A stretch of DNA of 64,000 bases from Coriobacteriia bacterium. Its GTDB lineage: Bacteria; Actinomycetota; Coriobacteriia; Anaerosomatales; SLCP01. Each line of letters starts with the position of its first letter. Within the stretch, counting starts at the first letter, position 1. Shown here one piece after another: positions 25,584-38,105 of this stretch. Both the position numbers and the translations under genes were made by a program. Below the pieces are notes generated by a model, which was given only the letters and a program-made list of their open reading frames with translations, was not told the DNA's origin and ran no database searches. The stretch spans positions 62,001-126,000 of the forward strand of contig JAUVXE010000005.1 of assembly GCA_030603745.1 (NCBI GenBank), in the 5' to 3' direction.

Positions 25584-26060
25584 ATGGAAGAGTTGGTCGC
25601 AGGGCTGCCGCCGTATCTCAAATACCTCGTACTCGCGTTCGTTCCCACGATCGAGCTGAGAGGCGCGGTGCCATGGGCGGTCCAGCAAGGCGATCGCCTC
25701 TACCTGCCACTCATCCTCATCGCCAACCAACTCATCTTCTGGCCCACCTACTGGGGACTCGAGCTGCTCTACGAGCTCATCCCTGAAGACACCTGGGTGC
25801 ATCGCAAGCTCGAGCGGATCCGGCATAAGGCGCACCCGCTCGTCGAGCGGTACGGGGTGCTCGGGCTCGCGGTGTTCGTCTCGGTGCCGCTCCCGGGCAC
25901 GGGCGCCTACTCGGGTTCGGCGGCCGCGTGGCTCCTCGACATGGACTGGCGCAAGGCGTTCTTCTCGGTCAGCCTCGGCGTGCTGATCGCGTTCTTCGTC
26001 GTGTGGGGGCTGTCCGAGGCGGTCGCGGCCGGCGTCGTGGCCTTCCGGGCGTTGCTCTGA
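25584..26060 (+). CDS. Small multidrug export family membrane protein
   Basis: This 158-residue protein has about four membrane segments. It matches what I know of the Sm_multidrug_ex / COG2426 family in its start (LPPYLKYLVLAFVPTIELRGAVPWAV) and its central VPLPGTGAYSGSAAAWLL. The family name is historical and the transported substrate is not established. GGAAGGG precedes the ATG. It is followed 14 bases later by the URO-D-like gene, probably in one transcript from the promoter at 25524. Confidence 0.8.
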   Translation: MEELVAGLPPYLKYLVLAFVPTIELRGAVPWAVQQGDRLYLPLILIANQLIFWPTYWGLELLYELIPEDTWVHRKLERIRHKAHPLVERYGVLGLAVFVSVPLPGTGAYSGSAAAWLLDMDWRKAFFSVSLGVLIAFFVVWGLSEAVAAGVVAFRALL

Positions 26061-26074
26061 GTCGGGGGGATCGG

Positions 26075-26971
26075 ATGGCCGGCGCGTCGCATGGGTCCAA
26101 CGGTGGCGGGCACGCGTGTCTCGCGGGCGCGTTCGCGGGCGCTGTCGGACCGGTCTGCGTCGGCGTCACGTTCCTGCCGTCCGCGGCGATCGACTCCCTC
26201 GCCTGGGGCGGGGAGCGCGAGCAGCCGCTGCTCACCGCGGTGTGTAGCCGCCTGAGACCCGACTTCGCGTTCGTGCCGTCGTGGGAGGTCGACGCGACGC
26301 GGACCTGCGAGGCGGTCGCGGCGTGCGGCACCGCGCCACTGTGGGTCGTTCGCGGCCCGTTCGACGCCGTCGCCTCGAGCGAAGGCTGGCGCGAGAGCAT
26401 CTCGGCGACGATCGCCGACCCGGCACGTCTCGACGCGCAGCTCGATGCGGCCGTCGGTGAGGCTCGCGCGAGCATCCGGGAGGCGACCGCGTGCGGTGTC
26501 GCGGGGGTCGTGATCGCCGAGGACGTCGCCGGCGCGGACGGCCCGCTGCTCTCCCCGGACTACATCATCTCCGAGATCGTGCCGCGCCTCGGCCGGATCG
26601 CGGTGGCCGCGGCCGAGGAGGGCCTTCCCGTGATCTGGCACACCGACGGGGACCCCCGTCCCTTCATCGCCGCGGCGGCGCGGGTCGGGCTCGACGCCAT
26701 CCATCCCGGCGGCCTGGGGGCCGAACAGTTCGGGCAGGTCTTCGCAGCCGCTCGCGAGCACGGGCTCGCCGTGCTCGGGGGGATCCCCGGGGAGGCGTTG
26801 CGGGCGGGCGGTCCTGCTGTCGTCCGTGCGGGGATCGGCGCGGGAGTGCTCGCGGCAGGTGGCGGCCTGCTCGTCTGCGACGACGGCGGGGTGTCGACCG
26901 GTGAGGAGCTCGGTATGCTCGTGGTCGCCCTCCAGGCGGCGCGCGGCCCCGCGCAGGGTGGCCGAGGATGA
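26075..26971 (+). CDS. Uroporphyrinogen-decarboxylase-like protein
   Basis: This 298-residue TIM-barrel-like protein has features of the URO-D/MtaA superfamily: GVVIAEDVAGADGPLLSPDYIISEIVPRL near the middle, VIWHTDGDPRPFIAAAARVGLDAIHPGG and LAVLGGIPGEALRAGGP. Members include heme-pathway decarboxylases and corrinoid methyltransferases. With no heme genes and no corrinoid protein nearby, neither role can be assigned. The ATG at 26075 follows GGGGGGA. The last four bases overlap the next gene. Confidence 0.72.
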   Translation: MAGASHGSNGGGHACLAGAFAGAVGPVCVGVTFLPSAAIDSLAWGGEREQPLLTAVCSRLRPDFAFVPSWEVDATRTCEAVAACGTAPLWVVRGPFDAVASSEGWRESISATIADPARLDAQLDAAVGEARASIREATACGVAGVVIAEDVAGADGPLLSPDYIISEIVPRLGRIAVAAAEEGLPVIWHTDGDPRPFIAAAARVGLDAIHPGGLGAEQFGQVFAAAREHGLAVLGGIPGEALRAGGPAVVRAGIGAGVLAAGGGLLVCDDGGVSTGEELGMLVVALQAARGPAQGGRG

Positions 26972-27480: not shown

Positions 27481-27564
27481 GTGCGCCGTGCGCGCCGCTC
27501 CCCGACGCCGTGCCGATCCGCTCGGCGGCGCAAGGACATGACAGGGACCACCGGGAGGGAATCC

Positions 27565-28314
27565 GTGGCGCTCGAGGGCAACCTGAAAGACTTCTCGCTC
27601 GCGGACATGTTCCGGCTGCTCTCCTCGGGCGGCAAGACGGGAACCCTCCACATGACGGCCGCGCAGGCGGAGGGCAAGGTCTGCTTCAAGAAGGGCCGCG
27701 TCTTCTTCGCCTCGTCGAACTACAATCGCGAGTCTCTCGGCCGTCGGCTTGTCAAGGCCGGCGTGATCTCCGATAAGCAGCTCCGACAGGCGCTCGGCCT
27801 GCAGAAGATCCAGAAGAAGGAGAAGGCGGGGCGGCGCCTCGGCCAGATCCTCGTCGACGAGGGGTACCTCGAGGGCAAGGTGCTCGAGGGCTTCATCCAG
27901 GAGCAGATCAACGACACGCTGTTCGACCTCTTCCGCTGGGAGGAGGGCGACCTGCGCTTCGAGGCCGACGAGGCGTGTGACGCCGAGGACATCGGTATCT
28001 CCGTCTCGGTCGAGAACATCATCATGGAGTCGTCTCGCCGCCTCGAGATGTGGAACCGGATCCGCGAGCAGATCCCCTCGATGGAGACCCGGTTCGTCAT
28101 GGCCTCGGCGCCCGGCGAGAAGTCGATCGAGATACACCTCAAGCCGCGCGAGTGGATGCTGCTGTGCTACCTGCACGGCGGACGGTCCGTGCGCGAGCTG
28201 ACCGAGCTCACCGGCTACAACGATTTCGACACCGCGAAGATCCTCTACGGGATGAGCGCTGCCGGACTCATCGAGAAGGTCGGGGCATCGGACGGCGAAC
28301 CCGTGACGGGGTAG
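27565..28314 (+). CDS. DUF4388 (PatA-like) protein with MshEN-like repeats
   Basis: This 249-residue protein starts with the DUF4388 pattern ALEGNLKDFSLADMFRLLSSGGKTGTLHM. Two motifs of MshEN type follow, LGRRLVKAGVISDKQLRQALGLQ and RLGQILVDEGYLEGKVLEGFIQEQ, then LFDLFRWEEGDLRFE and a C-terminal winged-helix-like part. MshEN repeats can bind cyclic-di-GMP in other proteins; binding here is an inference. GTG 27565 follows GGGAGGGA. An ATG at 27538 in the same frame is an alternative start. It is the first gene of the chemosensory operon and is followed by cheR after three bases. Confidence 0.85.
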   Translation: MALEGNLKDFSLADMFRLLSSGGKTGTLHMTAAQAEGKVCFKKGRVFFASSNYNRESLGRRLVKAGVISDKQLRQALGLQKIQKKEKAGRRLGQILVDEGYLEGKVLEGFIQEQINDTLFDLFRWEEGDLRFEADEACDAEDIGISVSVENIIMESSRRLEMWNRIREQIPSMETRFVMASAPGEKSIEIHLKPREWMLLCYLHGGRSVRELTELTGYNDFDTAKILYGMSAAGLIEKVGASDGEPVTG

Positions 28315-28317
28315 ACG

Positions 28318-29850
28318 ATGAACGTGCCGTCCGGCGAACCGCTCTCCAAGAACCTGACCGCCGAGGAGTTCCAGCGGTTCCGCGACTACGTCCACCAGCA
28401 CTCCGGGATCTACCTCGAAGAGACCAAGATCGACTCGTTGCGCATCTCGCTGGTCACGCGTGCCACGCGCTTCGGGCTCCACGGCCTCGGCGAGTACTTC
28501 GACCTCCTGAGCACCGACGAGGCGGAGTTCCGTGAGCTCATGAACCTCGTCACCATCAACGAGACGAGCTTCTTCCGCTTCCCGGCGCAGTTCGAAGCGA
28601 TGCGCGACCGGGTCATCCCGGAGCTGCTCGAGGGCAAGTCCGCGGAGGACCGGGCGTTTCGGGTGTGGTCGGCAGGATGCTCCACCGGCGAGGAGCCGTA
28701 CACGATCGCGATGACGCTCATCGACTCCGGGATCGAGGGGCTCGGGTATCGGCCCGAGGTGATGGGGACCGACGTCTCGACCAACGCGCTCGACCGCGCC
28801 CGCCGGGGCGTCTACCCGGCACGCGCGCTCCACAACGTGCCGCACCCCGTGGTCAGCAGGTTCTTCGAGCCCACCTCCGACGGTCACCAGGTGGCGGCGC
28901 ACGTTCGTAGGCTCGTCGACTTCAACTACCACAATCTCATCAAGGAGCCGTATCCGCTTGCGCTCGTCGGCAACTGGGACATCATCTTCTGCCGCAACGT
29001 CACCATCTACTTCCGGCTCGAGTCCACCCGGCGTGTCGTGGACAACTTCTTCGAGTCGCTCAACCCGGGCGGGTACCTGTTCATCGGGCACTCGGAGACG
29101 CTCACGAGCATCACCGACCGGTTCGAGCCGGTCGAGGTGGGCGGGGTCTTCCTCTACCGCAAGCCGAGGAACCGCACCGCGGGCCGCCCGTTCGTCGAGC
29201 GCGTGCGGGAACGACGGCTCGAGGAGCGTCGCGACGGGCGGGACTCGAAGAAGGCGGCCGGGGGCGGGGCGCCGCAATCGGTCCGGGGCCGACTGTCGCG
29301 ACGGCGCGCGCAGGATCAGGCGGCGGCCTCGGGCGTCTCTCTGGCGGCGGACGCGGATGCGCTGCTCGCGCGCGCTCGACTCGCCGGGAGCGAAGGACGT
29401 GGGGATGAGACGCTCGAGGCCGCGCAGGCCGCTCTCGAGGTCGACCCCAACCGCGCGGACGCGCACCTCCTCGCCGCCTACGGGCACGCCGACACCGGGG
29501 CGTTCGACGAGGCGCTCATCGAGGTGCACCGCGCGCTGGAGATCGACCCGTTGCTGGCGGCCGCGCGCTACGTCCTCGGCCTGATCTACCAGCGGACCGG
29601 GCGGCCCGACGACGCGATCCGCGAGTTCAAGCGGACCATCTACACCGACCAGGACTTCGTCCTCGCCCACTTCAACCTCGCGAACCTGCACAAGTCGCGG
29701 GGCGAGTCGCGCGAGGCGTGCCGTGAGTACGAGAACACCTTGCGCGCGCTCTACCGCAATCCCGAGGGCCCGTGGACGGTGTTCCTCGGCGGGTTTCGGC
29801 CCGATCTGCTCGCCAAGACGTGCGAGCGCAGTCTGATAGAGTGTCGCTAG
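28318..29850 (+). CDS. cheR: CheR methyltransferase with C-terminal TPR repeats
   Basis: This 510-residue protein methylates glutamates on chemoreceptors using S-adenosylmethionine. It has a CheR N-terminal helical domain (about 12-70) and a catalytic domain with NETSFFRFP, VWSAGCSTGEEPYTIAM (SAM-binding) and IIFCRNVTIYF. A basic linker (about 285-340) leads to three TPR units (about 345-490). CheR-TPR fusions are typical of alternative chemosensory systems. The methylation target is presumably the receptor at 33344, and CheB at 37053 would reverse the reaction. Confidence 0.95.
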   Translation: MNVPSGEPLSKNLTAEEFQRFRDYVHQHSGIYLEETKIDSLRISLVTRATRFGLHGLGEYFDLLSTDEAEFRELMNLVTINETSFFRFPAQFEAMRDRVIPELLEGKSAEDRAFRVWSAGCSTGEEPYTIAMTLIDSGIEGLGYRPEVMGTDVSTNALDRARRGVYPARALHNVPHPVVSRFFEPTSDGHQVAAHVRRLVDFNYHNLIKEPYPLALVGNWDIIFCRNVTIYFRLESTRRVVDNFFESLNPGGYLFIGHSETLTSITDRFEPVEVGGVFLYRKPRNRTAGRPFVERVRERRLEERRDGRDSKKAAGGGAPQSVRGRLSRRRAQDQAAASGVSLAADADALLARARLAGSEGRGDETLEAAQAALEVDPNRADAHLLAAYGHADTGAFDEALIEVHRALEIDPLLAAARYVLGLIYQRTGRPDDAIREFKRTIYTDQDFVLAHFNLANLHKSRGESREACREYENTLRALYRNPEGPWTVFLGGFRPDLLAKTCERSLIECR

Positions 29851-29927: not shown

Positions 29928-30302
29928 ATGGCGAGGATCCTCGCGGTCGACGATAGTCCGACCATCCTCGAGATGATCAAGGCGATCCTGGTGGCAGGCG
30001 GTCATGAGGTGATCACCGCGGTCGACGGCGCGGAGGCGCTCGAGACGGCGCGAGCCGAGATGCCCGACCTGATCCTGCTCGACGTCATGCTCCCGAAACT
30101 CGACGGCTACCGCGTGTGCCGGTTGCTCAAGTTCGACCAGAAGTACAAGGCGATCCCGATCATCATGCTCACCGCCAAGACCGAGGAGCAGGCGATGGCG
30201 ACCGGCATCAGAACCGGAGCCAACCAGTACCTCACCAAGCCGGTCGAGCCCGAGAAGCTCCTGGCCGCGGTGGCCGAGGAACTCGACAAAGCGCAGGGCT
30301 GA
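29928..30302 (+). CDS. Single-domain response regulator
   Basis: This 124-residue receiver domain has no output part, like CheY or PilH. The phosphorylation site is D52 (LILLDVMLPKLDG), with acidic pair D8-D9 (AVDDSPTI), the switch threonine in MLTAKTEEQ and the lysine in LTKPVEPEKL. It probably takes phosphate from the CheA encoded downstream and acts on a protein partner or as a phosphate sink. The strong GGGAGGGAG RBS and a possible separate promoter suggest higher expression than its neighbours. Confidence 0.93.
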   Translation: MARILAVDDSPTILEMIKAILVAGGHEVITAVDGAEALETARAEMPDLILLDVMLPKLDGYRVCRLLKFDQKYKAIPIIMLTAKTEEQAMATGIRTGANQYLTKPVEPEKLLAAVAEELDKAQG

Positions 30303-30315
30303 GGGGGTCGGGCCG

Positions 30316-32220
30316 ATGGCTGAGACGCCCACGATAACCTCGAGGGTCCTCGACGCGCTCGCCTCGGCGGGTCTCGTGACCGTCGAGCAGATCGCTTCGC
30401 TCAACGAGGCCGCGGCCGCGCCGGGCGCCACGCCGGGCGCCGTGATCCAGCAGCGCGGGCTCGTCACCGGGGCCGACCTCGCGACCGTCCTCGAGGACGA
30501 GCTCGGGATCCCCCGCGTCGACCTCGCGAGCTACGCGCCCGACGACGAGGCGCTCGTGGTGCTGCCCGCGACCGAGGCGCGCGCGTTCGGGATGCTGCCC
30601 CTCTTCGAGATCGAGGGGATGCTCACCGTCGCGATCGGAGAGCCGTTCGACGTCTTCGAGCTCGACGCGCTCGGCGCGCGGCTCGGGGTGGAGGTCGAGG
30701 CGGTCCTCGCCGACCCCGCCTCGATCGCCGACGCGATCGCGCAGTACTATCCGGCCGAAGAACCCGCTCCGGCGCTCGCCCCTGAGGACGTGCCGCCGCC
30801 GCCGGTCGCAGCCGATGCGGCAGGTGCGGTGCCCGACGCCGAGGAGCCCGTCTTCGACGCTGCCGACCTGTTCGAGGTCGGCGCCGAGAGCGCGACGGCG
30901 CCGGTCGCGCCTGTCGCGGCGGTTCCGGTGGTGCCCGAGGCGCCGTCGGATGCGGAGTCCGGGCCCGCGCTCGATGAGGTGCCGGCCGAGACGATCGAGC
31001 AGGTGGTGGAGACCGAGGCACCGGCGGGGCCGCCCGCCATCGACCTCGACGTGCTCGCGGTCGCCGACGCGGCCAAGGTCGCGATGCTCGTGGGCGACAT
31101 CCTCGACCACGCGGTGCGAGCGGGCGCCAACCGGATACATCTGCTGCCCTACAAGGACGACTTCTTCCTCGTCTACCGCGTGGGCGGACGCCTCGAGAAG
31201 ATCGCGAGCGCGCCGCTCTCGATGCAGGCCGCGCTCGTGGACGCGATCAAGTCCTACGCCCGCCTGAGCTCCGTGCCCGCGACGCTCCCGGCGCTCGGCC
31301 GACTGCGCTCGAAGGTCGCCGACCGCGACCTGGTGGTCACGGTCTCCGCGGTCCCGACCGTGGCAGGCCAGCGCGTGGTGATCTCGTTCGCCGCCTATGA
31401 CTCAAGCCCGCGGACCCTGCTCGACCTCGGCATGTCCGAGGCCGAGTCGCGCGCGCTGCACGCGATGGTGGAGCGTGGACGAGGCATCCTCCTCGTCTGC
31501 GCGCCGGTGGCCGGCGGGCGCAGCTCTACCTACTACGCGCTGCTCGCGCACGCCGCCGCCGCCGGCAAGACCGCCTACTCGGTGGAGTCCTCGGTCGACT
31601 TCGAACTCCCGGCCGTCGCGCAGGTGCTCGTCAACCCGGGGTCGCCGGTCGGCGCGGCCTCGTACTTCGCGGCGGGGATGCGCCAGGATACCGACGTGAT
31701 GGCCATCGACTCGCTGCAGTCGGTGGAGGACGTGCACCTCGCGATCGAGGCCGCCGGCCTCGGCAAGCTCGTGATCGCCACCTTCTCGGGGGGCGACATC
31801 ATCGCGGGCGTGCGCCGCATGCTCGACCTGGGCGCGGAGCCCACGAGTCTCGCCTCGGCGCTCACGCTGGGCGTCGGTCAGCGGATCGTCCGCACCAACT
31901 GCCCCAACTGCTCGCAAGACGAGACGTCCCCGCTCGCCGCTGCGATCCCGGGCGCGCCCGCAGGGATCACCTCCCGCATCGGCACGGGCTGCCCCAACTG
32001 CGGTAAGAGCGGGTTCGGCGGAGCGACCGGGATCTTCGAGGTGCTGCCGTTCACGGAGCCGGTCCGCGCGACCATCGCGCGCGGCGGCTCCGCGGAGCGG
32101 ATCGGCGACGCCGCACGGGCCGCGGGCATGCGGCCGATGGTCGCGTCCGGGCTCGCCCGGGTGACCGACGGCACGGTGAGCGCCCAGGAACTGAACCGCG
32201 TGCTGCGGTTCGCCGAGTGA
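30316..32220 (+). CDS. GspE/PilB-like protein with MshEN domain and dead ATPase core
   Basis: This 634-residue protein is built like a type II secretion/type IV pilus assembly ATPase: an N-terminal MshEN/T2SSE_N domain (about 8-140), an acidic Pro/Ala linker (about 145-235), then the GspE core with a four-cysteine zinc site (CPNC at about 532 and 559). The NTPase motifs are destroyed. Walker A reads APVAGGRSS (about 396-404) instead of GPTGSGKTT, the Asp box reads ESSVDF, Walker B reads DTDVMAIDSLQS instead of the usual GEIRD, and the His box reads LVIATFSGGD. ATP hydrolysis is unlikely. It may be a scaffold or c-di-GMP-responsive adaptor of the chemosensory array. Confidence 0.85.
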   Translation: MAETPTITSRVLDALASAGLVTVEQIASLNEAAAAPGATPGAVIQQRGLVTGADLATVLEDELGIPRVDLASYAPDDEALVVLPATEARAFGMLPLFEIEGMLTVAIGEPFDVFELDALGARLGVEVEAVLADPASIADAIAQYYPAEEPAPALAPEDVPPPPVAADAAGAVPDAEEPVFDAADLFEVGAESATAPVAPVAAVPVVPEAPSDAESGPALDEVPAETIEQVVETEAPAGPPAIDLDVLAVADAAKVAMLVGDILDHAVRAGANRIHLLPYKDDFFLVYRVGGRLEKIASAPLSMQAALVDAIKSYARLSSVPATLPALGRLRSKVADRDLVVTVSAVPTVAGQRVVISFAAYDSSPRTLLDLGMSEAESRALHAMVERGRGILLVCAPVAGGRSSTYYALLAHAAAAGKTAYSVESSVDFELPAVAQVLVNPGSPVGAASYFAAGMRQDTDVMAIDSLQSVEDVHLAIEAAGLGKLVIATFSGGDIIAGVRRMLDLGAEPTSLASALTLGVGQRIVRTNCPNCSQDETSPLAAAIPGAPAGITSRIGTGCPNCGKSGFGGATGIFEVLPFTEPVRATIARGGSAERIGDAARAAGMRPMVASGLARVTDGTVSAQELNRVLRFAE

Positions 32221-32234
32221 GCCGGAAGGAAGCG

Positions 32235-32792
32235 ATGACCCCCCGCAAGAAGCCCGAGACACCGGCGGAGCAGCCGGTCGAGACGCCGGACACCTCGCCG
32301 GCAGGAGCGCCCGCGATCGAGGCGCCGCTGCCCGAGGTCTCGCGGATGGTGGCGTTCCACCTCGGCAGCCAGCGCTACGGCCTGCCGATCGACAGCGTGC
32401 AGGAGATCCAGCAGATCGTCGCCTTCGCCGAGGTGCCGGACGAGAGCGGCGCGGTCCTCGGCATGGTGAACCTGCGCGGCCAGGTGGTGCCCGCGGTCGA
32501 CCTGCGCCTGCTCCTCGGGATGGAGCCGCGCGCGTACACGCTCGAGACCCCGATGGTGATCTGCCGCTCCGGGCAGGGGCTCGTGGCGCTGATCGTCGAC
32601 GTGGTCGACGACGTGACCGAGCTGCCCGAGGGCTGCCTGCAGCCCGCCCCGGCGATGCACTCGCTCGCGGGCCGCATGGTGGGGGTCTGCCGCCTTGAAG
32701 GCGGGATGGTCTTCCTGCTCGACGTCGACCGCCTGCTCGAGCCGGTCGACCTCGACGTCTGCGCAGACGGGGAGGTGCCGACGGATGACTGA
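32235..32792 (+). CDS. cheW: CheW-like coupling protein 1
   Basis: This protein of about 185 residues has a disordered Pro/Glu-rich start (about 1-38) and one CheW domain (VSRMVAFHLGSQRYGLPIDSVQEIQ to the end; VLGMVNLRGQVVPAVDLRLLLG is the typical core). CheW links receptors to CheA. ATG 32235 is chosen because GGAAGGA precedes it; a GTG at 32217 overlapping the previous stop is possible. It overlaps the second cheW by eight bases. Confidence 0.9.
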   Translation: MTPRKKPETPAEQPVETPDTSPAGAPAIEAPLPEVSRMVAFHLGSQRYGLPIDSVQEIQQIVAFAEVPDESGAVLGMVNLRGQVVPAVDLRLLLGMEPRAYTLETPMVICRSGQGLVALIVDVVDDVTELPEGCLQPAPAMHSLAGRMVGVCRLEGGMVFLLDVDRLLEPVDLDVCADGEVPTDD

Positions 32793-33327
32793 CGAGCAGC
32801 GCGACATCCGTCTCGCCTCGGTCGCCGAGGAGGTCCTGCGCCGCCGCGCGGACTCGCTCGCGCACGAGGCCGTCGAGGACGAGACCGACGACCGCATGGG
32901 GATCCTCCTGTTCCGGCTCGACGAGGAGTGGTACGCGGTCAAGGTCGCCGACGTCCGTGAGATCTACCAGGAGTACACGATCACGCCGGTCCCGTGCGTG
33001 CCTGCCTTCATCCTGGGGGTGGTCAACATCCGGGGTGAGATCATCTCCGTGACCGACATCGCGGCGCTCATGCGCCTGGGGGCGAGCGCCGTCGAGGACG
33101 GTTCCCCGGCGATCGTCATCCAGAACAACGAGTGCACGACCGCGATGGTGGTCGACGAGATCGGAGACATCACGGACGTGCCGGCCGACAGCATCGAGCC
33201 GCCGCTCTCCGTCATGGACAAGGCGCACGCCGAGTACGTCGCCGGATCGATCTACCTGGGAGAGCGCCTTATCGGTCTGGTGAACGTGGACCGAGTACTG
33301 CAGCCCATCGACGCCGAAGACCGATAG
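32785..33327 (+). CDS. cheW: CheW-like coupling protein 2
   Basis: This 180-residue CheW-domain protein has a helical N-terminal extension (about 1-37). [23 protein letters not shown] opens the domain and [21 protein letters not shown] is the core. It differs clearly from the preceding CheW, so the two are not a recent duplication. They may couple different partners, for example the receptor and the GspE-like protein. GGAGG precedes the ATG. Confidence 0.93.
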
Positions 33328-33343
33328 CGATCGGGAGGAAACG

Positions 33344-34576
33344 ATGTTCAAGCGACTCGTGACCGGATTCCGCAGCAGGTTCCTCTACAAGTACACGGCC
33401 GCCAACATCGTGCTGGCGCTCGTGTTCAACGTGATCCAGTGGTTCGTGGTGCTCTCGATCTTCGGGGCACAGATCTCCGAGTTCGTCTCCGAGGTCGAGA
33501 CGATGAACTGGATCATGGTGGCGGCTTCTCTCGTCGTGATCGCGGCGGTGTGGATGGTGGCGCTCGTGATGATCGGCGCGCGGTTCATGCGGCCGCTCGA
33601 GGAGGTCGTCGAGTCGGTCAAGGCGGCGTGTCAGGGCGACATCGGGCACAAGGTCGAGCTCGACACCCCCGACGAGTTCGGCGTGCTCGCGCGCTCCTAC
33701 AACCAGATGCTCGACCTCATCATCTATCTCGTCCGCCAGACGCAGGAGTCGTCCAACCGCCTCTCGGAGTCGGCGAACGAGATCCTCTCGGCGACCGAGC
33801 AGCAGGCCTCCGGCTCCGCCGAGCAGGCCGCCTCGATCAGCGAGACGACCGCCACCATGGAGGAGCTCGCCGCGACCTACCGCCAGATCGCGGACAACGC
33901 CAACCAGGTGGTGGAGATGGCCGAGGCGTCCCTCGGCAGCGCGGAGAGCGGGCAGCAGGCGGTCATGAACACGCTCACCGCGATGGAGGAGATCCGCAAC
34001 CACAGCCAGTCATCGGCGAACAAGATCCTCACGCTCGGGGAGCGCAGCCAGCAGATCGGGCAGGTGCTCGCGATCATCAACAGCATCGCCGACCAGACCA
34101 AGATCCTCGCGCTCAACGCCGCGATCGAGGCCGCCCGCGCGGGCGAGGCCGGCAAAGGCTTCTCGGTCGTGGCGATCGAGATCCGCAAGCTCGCGGAGTC
34201 CGTCGTGGACTCGACCGGCGAGATCTCGGCGATCATGACCGAGATCCAGGGGGCGGCCAACGAGCTGGTGCTCACGACCGAGCAGGAGCTCAACCAGGTC
34301 AAGGGCGGCGTGGACCTCGCGCATGTGACCGGCGAGAACCTCGACCGCATCCTTGAGATGATCGAGCAGACCACCGTGGCCGCCAAGGAGATCAGCGCCG
34401 CCACGCAGCAGCAGAAGAGCGCGACCGACCAGGTGGTCAAGGCGATGCGCGAGGTCGCCGCCGTGGCGCAGCAGACCGCCGCCGGCAGCAGGCAGGTCGC
34501 GGGGAACGCCGAGCAGCTCTCGGCGATCGCCAAGGAGTCGAGCCAGATCGGCTCGGCGTTCAGGATCGTCGGGTAG
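33344..34576 (+). CDS. Methyl-accepting chemotaxis protein without a periplasmic sensor domain
   Basis: This 410-residue receptor has two membrane segments (about 20-42 and 54-76) separated by only about ten residues, so there is no room for an extracellular ligand domain. A HAMP domain (about 78-130) and a long signalling coiled coil follow, with the hairpin tip [41 protein letters not shown]. It must sense inside the cell, in the membrane, or through a partner protein. The RBS GGGAGGAAA is strong. Confidence 0.95.
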
Positions 34577-34610: not shown

Positions 34611-37031
34611 ATGGTCGAGTTCGACCGCAGCGCATTCATCGGCAAGTTCCAGGAGGAGGCGACCGACCTCCTGCAACGCCTGAACGAAGGCATCATCATG
34701 CTCGAGGCCACGCCGAGCGACCGGGAGCTCATCGACCGGTGGCTGCGCGACGCCCACACGCTCAAGGGCTCTTCGCGCATGGTCGGGCTTATCGAGATCT
34801 CCGACATCGCGCACCGCCTCGAGGACGTGATGGTGCGGGTGCGAGAGGGAGAGATGGCCTATACCGCCGAGATCAGCGACCACTTCTTCGAGGCGCTCGA
34901 CGCGATCGTGCACCTCGCCGAGATCGCGGGGACCGACGCCGAGCCCTCCGTCGACCTGCCGGCGCTGCAGGCGAGCCTCACCGCCGTGGCCGAGCACGGC
35001 CCGGGCGGCGCGCCTTCCGCGGGCGAGGCGACCGGCGGCGACGAAGAGGCCGCGGAGTCCGCGGCGCCCGGGGCGCCGCTCGCCGACGAGGTGATCGAGG
35101 ACGATCACGCCGCGGAACCTGCGGGCGATGCCGATGACCCCGCGGAATCCGAGCCCGTCGCGGAGCGGGCGACCGCGCCCGCGCGTGCGACCGGGCCCGC
35201 CGCCGCCCCCGGGCCTGCGTCGACCCCCGCTCCGGTGCCGGGCCAGCCGCAGCGCGCGAAGCGTGACGACACCCTCGAGGCCAAGGTCCAGCACACCATC
35301 CGCATCAAGACCTCCCAGGTCGACGAGCTGCTCAACCTCGTGAGCGAGGTCGTCATCTCGCAGATCAAGTCCGAGCAGCGCGCGACGGAGCTGCGCCACG
35401 CGACCGCGCAGCACACGGAGTTGTGGCAGGCGTGGCTGCGGCTCAAGGGCTCACTGGCCTCCATCCCGCACTCCGAGGACGTCGTGGGCACCCAACTCAT
35501 CGACGAGCTCTCGGTCGTCGAGGCGCTCCTCGCCGACCTGCGAAAGACGCACGCCACCTTCGCCAAAGACCTCGCCGACGACACCTCGCGCGCGAGCGTG
35601 GTCGTCAACGACCTGCAGGAGCAGGGGATGCGCCTCAGGATGCTCCCGGTGAGCACCGTCTTCTCCACCTTCCCGCGGGCGATGCGCGATCTCGCGCGCT
35701 CCTTCAAGAAGGACGTCGACCTCATCATCGAGGGCGGGGACACCGAGCTCGACAAGAAGGTGCTCGAGGAGATCAACGACCCGCTCGTCCACATCATGCG
35801 CAACGCGGTCGACCACGGGATCGAGCCGGCCGAGGTGCGCCGCTCCCTCGGCAAGCCCGAGACGGGGACGATCCGCATGTCGGCCCGGCAGGAGGGCGAC
35901 CATATCGTCATCGAGGTCGCCGACGACGGCGGGGGGATCGACCCGGACAAGGTGCGGGCCTCGGCGGTGCGCAAGGGCTACATCTCGCAGTCCGAGGCCG
36001 ACGCCATGTCCGACCGGGAGGCGACCTATCTCATCTTCGAGAAGGGCTTCTCCACGAGTGCCATCATCACGGAGATCTCCGGCCGAGGAGTCGGGATGGA
36101 CGTGGTGCGCGAGTTCATCGTCGAGAAGCTCAAGGGCTCCCTCGATGTGGACAGCAGGCTCGGCCAGGGCAGCACGTTCCGGCTCACGATCCCGCTCACG
36201 CTCGCGATCATCCGGGCGCTCATGCTCAAGGTCGGGGACCGTGTCTACGCGCTTCCCACCGCCTCGGTCGACGAGACGCTGCGCGCGGAGCCCTCGAGCG
36301 TCATCAAGGTCGAGGGCCGCGAGGTCATCCGTCGCCAGCGCAGGACGATCCCGCTCGTGCGGCTCGCCGACATCCTCGGGGTGCCGGGGGACGAGACGCT
36401 CAAGGCGAAGATCCCGATCGCGAACGTGGGCTTCTCCGGACACCGGATGGGCTTCATCGTCGACGCGCTCGTGGGCGAGCAGCAGATCGTCATCAAGACG
36501 CTCGGCAACCACCTGCGCAAGGTCGACAACATCGCCGGCGTGACCATCCTCGGCGCGGGAGAGGTCGTCCCCATCCTCAACGTGCCCGATCTCATGAAGA
36601 ACGCGCGCCGCAAGGCGGGTCGGCGCGGGGCGGCCGTCGAGACGGCGGAGGCGAGGACCGGGCCGCGCAAGGTGCTCATCTGCGAGGACTCCTTCACGAC
36701 CCGCGAGCTCGAGCGTTCGATCTTCGAGGCGGCCGGCTACGAGGTCGAGGTCGCGATGGACGGCGCCGAGGGGCTCTCGAAACTCAAAGAGGGACTCGAC
36801 GTCGACGCCGTGGTCTCCGACGTGCAGATGCCGCACATGACCGGTTTCGAGCTCACGGCCGCGATCAAGGCCGACGCCAAGCTCAAGGAGATCCCGGTCA
36901 TCATCGTCACCTCGCTCGAGCGCGAGGAAGAGAAGGCCGAGGGAATCGCCGCGGGCGCGGACGCCTACATCACCAAGTCCGTCTTCAACCAGGACACGTT
37001 GCTGGACACGGTCGAGCGGCTCATCCGCTAG
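34611..37031 (+). CDS. cheA: Hybrid chemotaxis histidine kinase CheA with receiver domain
   Basis: This 806-residue protein has an HPt domain with phosphorylated His49 (DAHTLKGSSRM), then a long Ala/Pro/Glu-rich linker (about 125-220) with no recognisable P2 domain. The dimerisation domain starts at about 225, the HATPase region (HIMRNAVDHG, VADDGGGIDPDKV, GRGVGMDVV) runs from about 390 to 550, and a CheW-like regulatory domain reaches about 675. A receiver domain closes the protein (about 687-806; phosphoacceptor Asp in AVVSDVQMPHMTGF). The single HPt and attached receiver are typical of alternative chemosensory systems. Confidence 0.96.
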   Translation: MVEFDRSAFIGKFQEEATDLLQRLNEGIIMLEATPSDRELIDRWLRDAHTLKGSSRMVGLIEISDIAHRLEDVMVRVREGEMAYTAEISDHFFEALDAIVHLAEIAGTDAEPSVDLPALQASLTAVAEHGPGGAPSAGEATGGDEEAAESAAPGAPLADEVIEDDHAAEPAGDADDPAESEPVAERATAPARATGPAAAPGPASTPAPVPGQPQRAKRDDTLEAKVQHTIRIKTSQVDELLNLVSEVVISQIKSEQRATELRHATAQHTELWQAWLRLKGSLASIPHSEDVVGTQLIDELSVVEALLADLRKTHATFAKDLADDTSRASVVVNDLQEQGMRLRMLPVSTVFSTFPRAMRDLARSFKKDVDLIIEGGDTELDKKVLEEINDPLVHIMRNAVDHGIEPAEVRRSLGKPETGTIRMSARQEGDHIVIEVADDGGGIDPDKVRASAVRKGYISQSEADAMSDREATYLIFEKGFSTSAIITEISGRGVGMDVVREFIVEKLKGSLDVDSRLGQGSTFRLTIPLTLAIIRALMLKVGDRVYALPTASVDETLRAEPSSVIKVEGREVIRRQRRTIPLVRLADILGVPGDETLKAKIPIANVGFSGHRMGFIVDALVGEQQIVIKTLGNHLRKVDNIAGVTILGAGEVVPILNVPDLMKNARRKAGRRGAAVETAEARTGPRKVLICEDSFTTRELERSIFEAAGYEVEVAMDGAEGLSKLKEGLDVDAVVSDVQMPHMTGFELTAAIKADAKLKEIPVIIVTSLEREEEKAEGIAAGADAYITKSVFNQDTLLDTVERLIR

Positions 37032-37052: not shown

Positions 37053-38105
37053 GTGCCGGGAGCCACCGTACGCGTGCTCATCGTCGACGACTCGCTCGTC
37101 GCCCGCGAGATGCTCGCCCAGATCCTCGCGAGCGACCCCGACATCGAGGTCGTGGGGACGGCGAGCAACGGCGAGGAGGCCATCGCCAAGACCGCCGAGT
37201 TGCGCCCCGACCTCATCACGATGGACATCCACATGCCCAAGATGGACGGGCTGATGGCCACCGAGCAGATCATGGCGTACACACCCACGCCGATCCTCGT
37301 GGTATCGTCCTCGGTCTACGGCGAGGGGATGGGGCGCGCGTTCGACGCGCTCGAGTCCGGTGCCCTCGAGGTCATCAAGAAGCCCGAGCCCTCTGACTGG
37401 GCCGACCTGCAGCGCATCGGTCGCGACGTCATCCGCCGCGTGAAGCTCCTCTCTCGGGTCCGGGTCATCACGCACATCAAAGGCAAGCGCGCCGTGCGCT
37501 CCGCCGAGGAGGCCCGCGCCGCCACCGACGTGCGCGGGGGCCGCACCGCGCTGGTCGCGATCGGCTCGTCGACCGGCGGGCCCTCGGCGCTGCTGAATGT
37601 GCTCGGCCGCCTGCCGGCCGACTTCCCGGTCCCTCTGGTGGTCGCCCAGCACATCGCCGACGGGTTCGTGCCGGGTCTCGTGAGCTGGCTCGACTCGGGC
37701 TGCAAGCTCAAGATCGCGGCCGCCGAGGACGGCGCGAACGTGGAGCCGGGGGTCGCGTACTTCGCCCCGACCGGACTGAACCTCGCGATGGACGGCGCCA
37801 CCATGCGGTTCCGCGAGCCGAGCGCCGGCCAGCTCTACATCCCTTCGGCGGACACGCTCTTCGAGACGACGGCGCGCGCGTTCGGCCGCACGGCCGTGGG
37901 GGTCATCCTCACCGGGATGGGGGCGGACGGGGCGATGGGCCTCAAGTCGATGCGGGACGCCGGGGCGTTCACCATCGCGCAGGACGAGGCGACGTCGACC
38001 GTCTACGGGATGCCGCGGGCGGCGGCCGAGGTCGGTGCCGCCGAGGTGGTGCTGCCCGTGCACGAGATCGCCGAGAAGCTCGAGCGGGTGGTCTCGCGCG
38101 CCTGA
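37053..38105 (+). CDS. cheB: Chemotaxis methylesterase CheB
   Basis: This 350-residue protein has an N-terminal receiver domain (D58 in LITMDIHMPKMDG) and a C-terminal methylesterase/deamidase domain. Its triad residues are S173 (IGSSTGGPSALL), H200 (VVAQHIADGF) and the Asp of GMGADGAMG. It removes methyl groups added by CheR. It starts with GTG after GAGGGGAG and is the last gene of the chemosensory operon. Confidence 0.96.
   Translation: MPGATVRVLIVDDSLVAREMLAQILASDPDIEVVGTASNGEEAIAKTAELRPDLITMDIHMPKMDGLMATEQIMAYTPTPILVVSSSVYGEGMGRAFDALESGALEVIKKPEPSDWADLQRIGRDVIRRVKLLSRVRVITHIKGKRAVRSAEEARAATDVRGGRTALVAIGSSTGGPSALLNVLGRLPADFPVPLVVAQHIADGFVPGLVSWLDSGCKLKIAAAEDGANVEPGVAYFAPTGLNLAMDGATMRFREPSAGQLYIPSADTLFETTARAFGRTAVGVILTGMGADGAMGLKSMRDAGAFTIAQDEATSTVYGMPRAAAEVGAAEVVLPVHEIAEKLERVVSRA

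Follow-up and report, generated by a model that had tools for sequence, protein, structure and literature searches.

The window, which is the whole stretch of 64,000 nucleotides that was analyzed, contains a chemosensory operon of nine genes in the order PATAN-CheR-CheY-psPilB-CheW-CheW-MCP-CheA-CheB (Table 1). The fourth gene encodes psPilB, a catalytically degenerate homolog of the PilB/GspE ATPases. The initial annotation had located this gene between a response regulator and two cheW genes, and these neighbors are indeed present, CheY upstream and two CheW genes downstream, within the longer operon that runs from PATAN to CheB. Judging from its sequence, the CheY-like receiver apparently retains the phosphorylation-site residues. 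CheW1 starts either at a GTG that overlaps the psPilB stop codon or at an ATG at 32235 that is preceded by GGAAGGA, which corresponds to a 4 bp overlap or a 14 bp gap between the two genes. A scan of the operon for promoters and terminators gave no signal above chance. Upstream of the operon lies a gene for a distant uroporphyrinogen-decarboxylase-like protein (25928–26971; E = 2e-4, below the Pfam cut-off), and such a gene is also found near the psPilB operon in many relatives.

Table 1. Genes of the chemosensory operon and features of psPilB and the PATAN protein, in window coordinates
Feature	Position	Strand	Basis
PATAN (DUF4388) protein, 258 aa (start inferred), winged-helix-like C-terminus, first operon gene	27538..28314	+	Pfam DUF4388 E 6e-32; AF2 pLDDT 88; syntenic in relatives
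Tandem MshEN-type motif pair in helical insertion of PATAN, aa 66-123: SLGRRLVKAGVISDKQLRQALGLQ ... RLGQILVDEGYLEGKVLEGFIQEQ	27733..27906	+	conservation; profiles; model overlay
CheR methyltransferase with TPR repeats	28318..29850	+	Pfam
CheY-like receiver	29928..30302	+	Pfam E 1e-28
psPilB (catalytically degenerate PilB/GspE homolog, 634 aa)	30316..32220	+	ORF real, intact
MshEN (N1) domain of psPilB, aa 5-147	30328..30756	+	Pfam; VIA Z 12.3 to MshE 5htl
Disordered variable linker of psPilB, aa 150-236	30763..31023	+	pLDDT <50 at 151-234; highest entropy
Degenerate Walker A of psPilB, aa 394-405, R402 in place of Lys	31495..31530	+	ortholog alignments
Degenerate Asp box of psPilB, aa 420-431, E424 kept, Asp-Pro lost	31573..31608	+	ortholog alignments
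Degenerate Walker B/GEIRD of psPilB, aa 459-470, Glu lost, Gly replaced by invariant D465	31690..31725	+	ortholog alignments
Degenerate His box of psPilB, aa 486-497	31771..31806	+	ortholog alignments
Four-cysteine zinc-type site of psPilB, C529 C532 C559 C562	31900..32001	+	alignment counts
CheW1	32217..32792	+	Pfam E 1e-33; sequence
CheW2 (ATG 32785 inferred)	32785..33327	+	Pfam E 1.5e-30
MCP with HAMP and signaling domain	33344..34576	+	Pfam
CheA with C-terminal receiver	34611..37031	+	Pfam; co-occurs with psPilB
CheB (receiver and methylesterase, read from translation)	37053..38105	+	syntenic homologs; translation

psPilB belongs to the GspE/PilB family, as shown by a T2SSE domain (residues 250–628, E = 1e-54), an MshEN N-domain (residues 63–149, E = 4e-16), and a predicted fold that matches. 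The nearest solved relatives, identified by a sequence search against the PDB, are the Geobacter PilBs (E = 6e-69). The AF2 model (pLDDT 85) superposes on the cores of PilB, PilF, and GspE with Z scores of about 30–32 (VIA); for 5zfr_C, the superposition covers 380 residues at 3.2 Å (Z = 32, VIA). In the model, the N1 and N2 domains are separated by a disordered linker of about 85 residues. As had been proposed for this gene, the MshEN fold and the four-cysteine zinc site are retained: Pfam recognizes MshEN, and the four cysteines are conserved in 39 of 39 psPilB orthologs and in nearly all canonical PilBs.

The catalytic motifs of psPilB deviate from those of the family. Walker A reads APVAGGRSS (usually GPTGSGK[ST]), Walker B AIDSLQS (usually xGEIRD), the Asp box VESSVD (usually EDPVE), and the His box TFSGGD (usually TLHTND). 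Homologs linked to che genes and similarly degenerate were searched for, as the initial annotation had proposed, and 51 psPilB orthologs were found in environmental Coriobacteriia (“Anaerosomatales” and relatives). None of these has the Walker A Lys, whose place is taken by Arg in 28, Ala in 14, Ser in 6, and Gly in 3 sequences. Full residue counts were obtained from one alignment of 39 psPilB orthologs and 33 canonical PilBs. All 33 canonical sequences have R323, K402, D425, P426, E428, G465, E466, R468, D469, and H491 (psPilB numbering), whereas the Walker B Glu (replaced by Ser, Gly, Pro, Ala, or Thr), the Asp–Pro of the Asp box, and the His-box His are missing in 39 of 39 psPilB orthologs. 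Gone as well is the ERRxPQDGR arginine segment of canonical PilBs, which includes R323. Thus, the residues by which an active PilB motor would be recognized, namely the Walker A Lys, the Walker B Glu, the Asp–Pro, and the His-box His, are those that psPilB lacks. The GEIRD Gly has become D465 in all 39 aligned orthologs, and in the Asp box, the first Glu (E424) persists in 51 of 51. The losses read from this single sequence therefore hold throughout the orthologs for the Walker A Lys, Walker B/GEIRD, and the His box; that of the Asp box holds for the Asp–Pro but not for E424.

Former catalytic positions of psPilB have a mean entropy of 1.35, compared with 0.88 in the rest of the domain, whereas the frame of the nucleotide pocket is still conserved. 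Values of dN/dS between close psPilB pairs are 0.06–0.24, which indicates purifying selection. Because the catalytic positions drift while the pocket frame is conserved and dN/dS is low, the gene is under selection, but apparently not as an ATPase. Decay in one genome, that is, a pseudogene, is ruled out by the 51 intact orthologs together with the low dN/dS, and an assembly artifact by the recurrence of the gene and its order in dozens of independent assemblies. When compensating catalytic residues were sought, the invariant residues E424, E430, and D465 were seen, and no plausible substitute for the Lys. Alternative catalytic residues are unlikely, given that the lost positions drift, and the pseudo-ATPase reading of the initial annotation is upheld.

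Gene order is identical in 30 of 30 complete loci, “complete” meaning that all nine operon genes were found. CheY lies upstream of psPilB in 44 of 44 testable loci and CheW1 downstream in 41 of 41, so that conservation in the operon, which had been named as a check, is borne out. Of 41 genomes of the order, 33 have both the operon CheA and psPilB, and 5 have neither; in the 3 mismatches (G005, G010, and G017), the one gene detected is a fragment situated at a contig end or close to it. With relatedness ignored, the co-occurrence over these 41 genomes has a Fisher p value of 1.6e-4. The data support the view that psPilB is a conserved PilB-family pseudo-ATPase and an obligate member of a chemosensory operon.

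Being encoded together with pilus assembly genes is usual, although not strictly defining, for active PilB motors. psPilB is encoded with che genes instead, and the pil locus of the genome lies elsewhere. The operon contains no pilus structural gene, and psPilB apart, no T2SSE or pilus gene was found among the scanned ORFs of the window. The earlier statement that no pilus genes are nearby is correct for these ORFs, but needs qualification in that the operon starts with PATAN, a domain associated with type IV pili.

The genome (2.14 Mb, 98% complete) encodes type IV pili, with three canonical PilBs, PilT, PilC, and PilD, all outside the window, and no FliG_C match was found in it; pili are thus present and the flagellar switch is absent. 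psPilB is only about 28–30% identical to the PilBs of its own genome. The pilus locus (L138 = G000:C2:294001-313500) has the order PilD-PilC-PilT-PilB-small GTPase-PATAN-PilB. The GTPase (L138 10679-11206), which lies between PATAN and PilB, is small and Ras/MglA-like, which suggests a polarity module outside Myxococcus. A second chemosensory cluster (L137, G000:C20:30001-50000) encodes a P2-type CheA, CheB, CheW, an MCP, CheR, CheD, and a GGDEF protein, and is located about 5 kb from a PilT-like gene. This cluster, rather than the psPilB operon, could be the one that controls the pili.

MshEN c-di-GMP receptors rely on two RLGxx...LxxxLxxQ motifs (Wang et al. 2016, PMC5013675). Across the 39 aligned psPilB orthologs, this pair is not preserved: in motif I, the Arg position is kept (Arg or Lys in 39 of 39) and the Gly is replaced by Leu or Ile (39 of 39), the Arg of motif II is lost, and so are both Gln residues (A33 in 36 and E62 in 35 of the 39 sequences). 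The canonical PilBs of the same genome likewise lack parts of the motif. psPilB as a c-di-GMP receptor is ruled against by these losses, and c-di-GMP binding, which the initial annotation had suggested testing, appears unlikely from the residues present.

The operon PATAN protein has, inside a helical insertion, two tandem 24-residue segments that match the MshEN motif. Motif II is near-perfect, with Arg, Leu, Gly, and Gln each found in 42–46 of 48 sequences; in motif I, Ser replaces Arg, and the spacer is longer than the five residues of MshE. Profile comparison (hhalign) aligns the motif pair with PilB N-domain profiles (probability 98, E = 2.4e-13), and the best match of the PATAN profile (A4) in the PDB is MshE (E = 9e-8). 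The PATAN model overlays on c-di-GMP-bound MshE (5htl) with 1.4 Å over 58 residues and 43% identity (VIA), at a Z score of 6.1 that is weak if taken alone. A Foldseek search of the model against the PDB gave no significant match. Based on profiles and model, the PATAN protein is likely the better candidate for a c-di-GMP sensor than psPilB. A second PATAN copy with the MshEN-type tandem motif (L138:11226-13022) is encoded in the pilus locus of the genome and is likewise a predicted c-di-GMP sensor. The main text of Wang et al. 2016 (PMC5013675) mentions neither PATAN nor DUF4388.

A sample of the phylum Actinomycetota (296 and 396 genomes, in overlapping sets) yielded three more family-level lineages with this operon type, represented by L117 (G281), L129/L130 (G218 and G335), and L080 (= G333). 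Their psPilBs are half-degenerate, in that GK[T] and a DE-type Walker B are kept and the Asp box, the His box, and the arginine segment are lost. In these proteins, Asp replaces the GEIRD Gly, which creates a DE Walker B as in other P-loop NTPases. Going by these motifs, the early-branching psPilBs may be nucleotide-binding switches. The L080 record bears the title Slackia heliotrinireducens, but it and G333 have identical psPilBs, and the species label seems to be erroneous. G333 shares only the phylum, not the class, with the genome of the window.

In the phylogenetic tree, a branch with 100/100 support separates the half-degenerate and Anaerosomatales psPilBs from the 33 canonical PilBs. 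Two entries that had not been labeled beforehand, L122 and L128, are the half-degenerate genes of G335 and G218. The branching order inside the pseudo clade is uncertain because of long branches (L080). Its neighbors on the canonical side are L119 (with L097) and L118, the placement of the latter being weak (86/55). The L118 and L119 genes each come after a CheY gene, and L118 has the order MCP-CheB-CheR-CheY-PilB, the PilB being a canonical one with an intact motor. From these sequences, the simplest reading, as we infer it, would be that a working motor first entered a che operon, that hydrolysis was then lost, and that nucleotide binding was lost thereafter.

psPilB probably carries signals between the chemosensory system and the real pilus machine; its partners, the direction of signaling, and the pilus as target are what we infer. 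As a partner, the type IV pilus is at least as likely as the receptor array, since there is no FliG, pili are present, and PATAN proteins bind PilB in Synechocystis. We give about even chances to psPilB being a non-catalytic, nucleotide-free mimic of PilB that couples CheY and PATAN to the pilus machine. Under this model, a PilB paralog would have been taken into the chemosensory operon while still a motor, would have lost hydrolysis first and nucleotide binding last, and would have kept the motor body as a protein-binding scaffold. The MCP-CheW-CheA array would set the phosphorylation of the co-transcribed CheY, and CheY, the PATAN protein, or both would bind psPilB. Loaded psPilB would then use its N1, N2, and zinc-arm surfaces to dock onto the type IV pilus machine at the base, and would thereby change which pili or motors are active.

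Among other explanations, psPilB could be a regulatory subunit in mixed hexamers with canonical PilB, an inactive or allosteric protomer that tunes extension under CheY control. Its predicted fold resembles that of hexameric PilB (Z = 32 over 380 residues), the genome offers three canonical PilBs, and a PilT with a dead Walker box can, when paired with PilU, still retract pili (review PMC11656802). However, the lost ERRxPQDGR segment and the low identity to the resident PilBs cast doubt on a shared interface, and we consider this explanation rather unlikely. The idea of the initial annotation, that psPilB is an adaptor which belongs to the MCP-CheW-CheA array itself, in a structural or regulatory role and without pilus contact, would account for its constant position between the CheY and CheW genes and its loss together with CheA. 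At the sequence level, a scaffold that serves only the array would look the same as one coupled to the pilus. Yet what psPilB has retained, including the zinc arm and the N1/N2 domains, is the body of a pilus motor, and the PATAN proteins of the operon and of the pilus locus point to the pilus, which makes the adaptor unlikely.

Relay of the chemosensory signal to a non-pilus output such as exopolysaccharide, cell polarity, or c-di-GMP seems very unlikely: PilB acts on EPS via Dif in M. xanthus (PMC5544727) and the PATAN protein, by sequence and model, resembles a c-di-GMP sensor, but no EPS or polarity genes were recognized within the psPilB operon. That psPilB is still an ATPase through other residues is scarcely credible, for despite E424 and the new invariant D465, and despite the GK[T] and DE-type Walker B of early-branching members, the Lys has turned into Arg, Ala, Ser, or Gly and the Glu into Ser, Gly, Pro, Ala, or Thr in the psPilB lineage, with the Asp box, His box, and arginine segment likewise lost.

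With pilus coupling as the preferred reading, a conserved pseudo-motor in a che operon represents a single, testable link from a chemosensory system to type IV pili. The half-degenerate relatives that survive suggest a sequence in which motor functions disappeared, and the concept that pseudo-enzymes serve as signaling parts would, through psPilB, come to include PilB. Tentatively, and with less confidence than in the coupling role itself, we propose a new class of signaling proteins: a captured type IV pilus motor, turned stepwise into a nucleotide-free, catalytically inert platform for docking. Such a protein would read CheY-P as well as a c-di-GMP-sensing PATAN protein and would control the real pilus motors, and intermediates of its conversion would still live in other actinobacterial lineages. 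psPilB is new within the PilB family; its fold is not. Searches of the open-access literature turned up no account of a PilB that is degenerate or inactive and lies within a chemosensory operon.

A link between a chemosensory system and type IV pili is known from the Pil-Chp system of Pseudomonas and other systems of the type IV pilus class; we know of no pseudo-motor in Pil-Chp. Closest to psPilB are the PilB/PilF extension ATPases (Geobacter PilB 5zfr, 6olj, and 5tsg; Thermus PilF 5oiu and 5it5), with which it shares the N1 (MshEN), N2, and C-terminal RecA-like domains and the four-Cys zinc site. Unlike these, psPilB lacks the Walker A Lys, the Walker B Glu, the Asp box, the His box, and the arginine segment, has che rather than pil genes as neighbors, and has a long disordered linker between N1 and N2. 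In Synechocystis, the PATAN regulators PixG and PixE bind PilB1 (PMC12288463, PMC7690835). That setting, like the psPilB operon, combines PATAN, CheY, and a PilB homolog with a chemotaxis-like system; the Synechocystis regulators are PATAN-CheY proteins, whereas the psPilB operon encodes PATAN and CheY separately and includes the PilB homolog, a degenerate one. For M. xanthus, Black et al. 2017 (PMC5544727) describe a Walker A variant of PilB that is deficient in ATPase activity and signals upstream of the Dif chemosensory pathway; in vitro results point to the nucleotide-free form as the signaling state (PMC5544727). psPilB fits this case, in which an ATPase-deficient state of PilB is able to signal and is tied to a chemosensory pathway. 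M. xanthus, however, uses one bifunctional motor for both jobs, whereas psPilB is a separate, permanently degenerate paralog encoded in the chemosensory operon.
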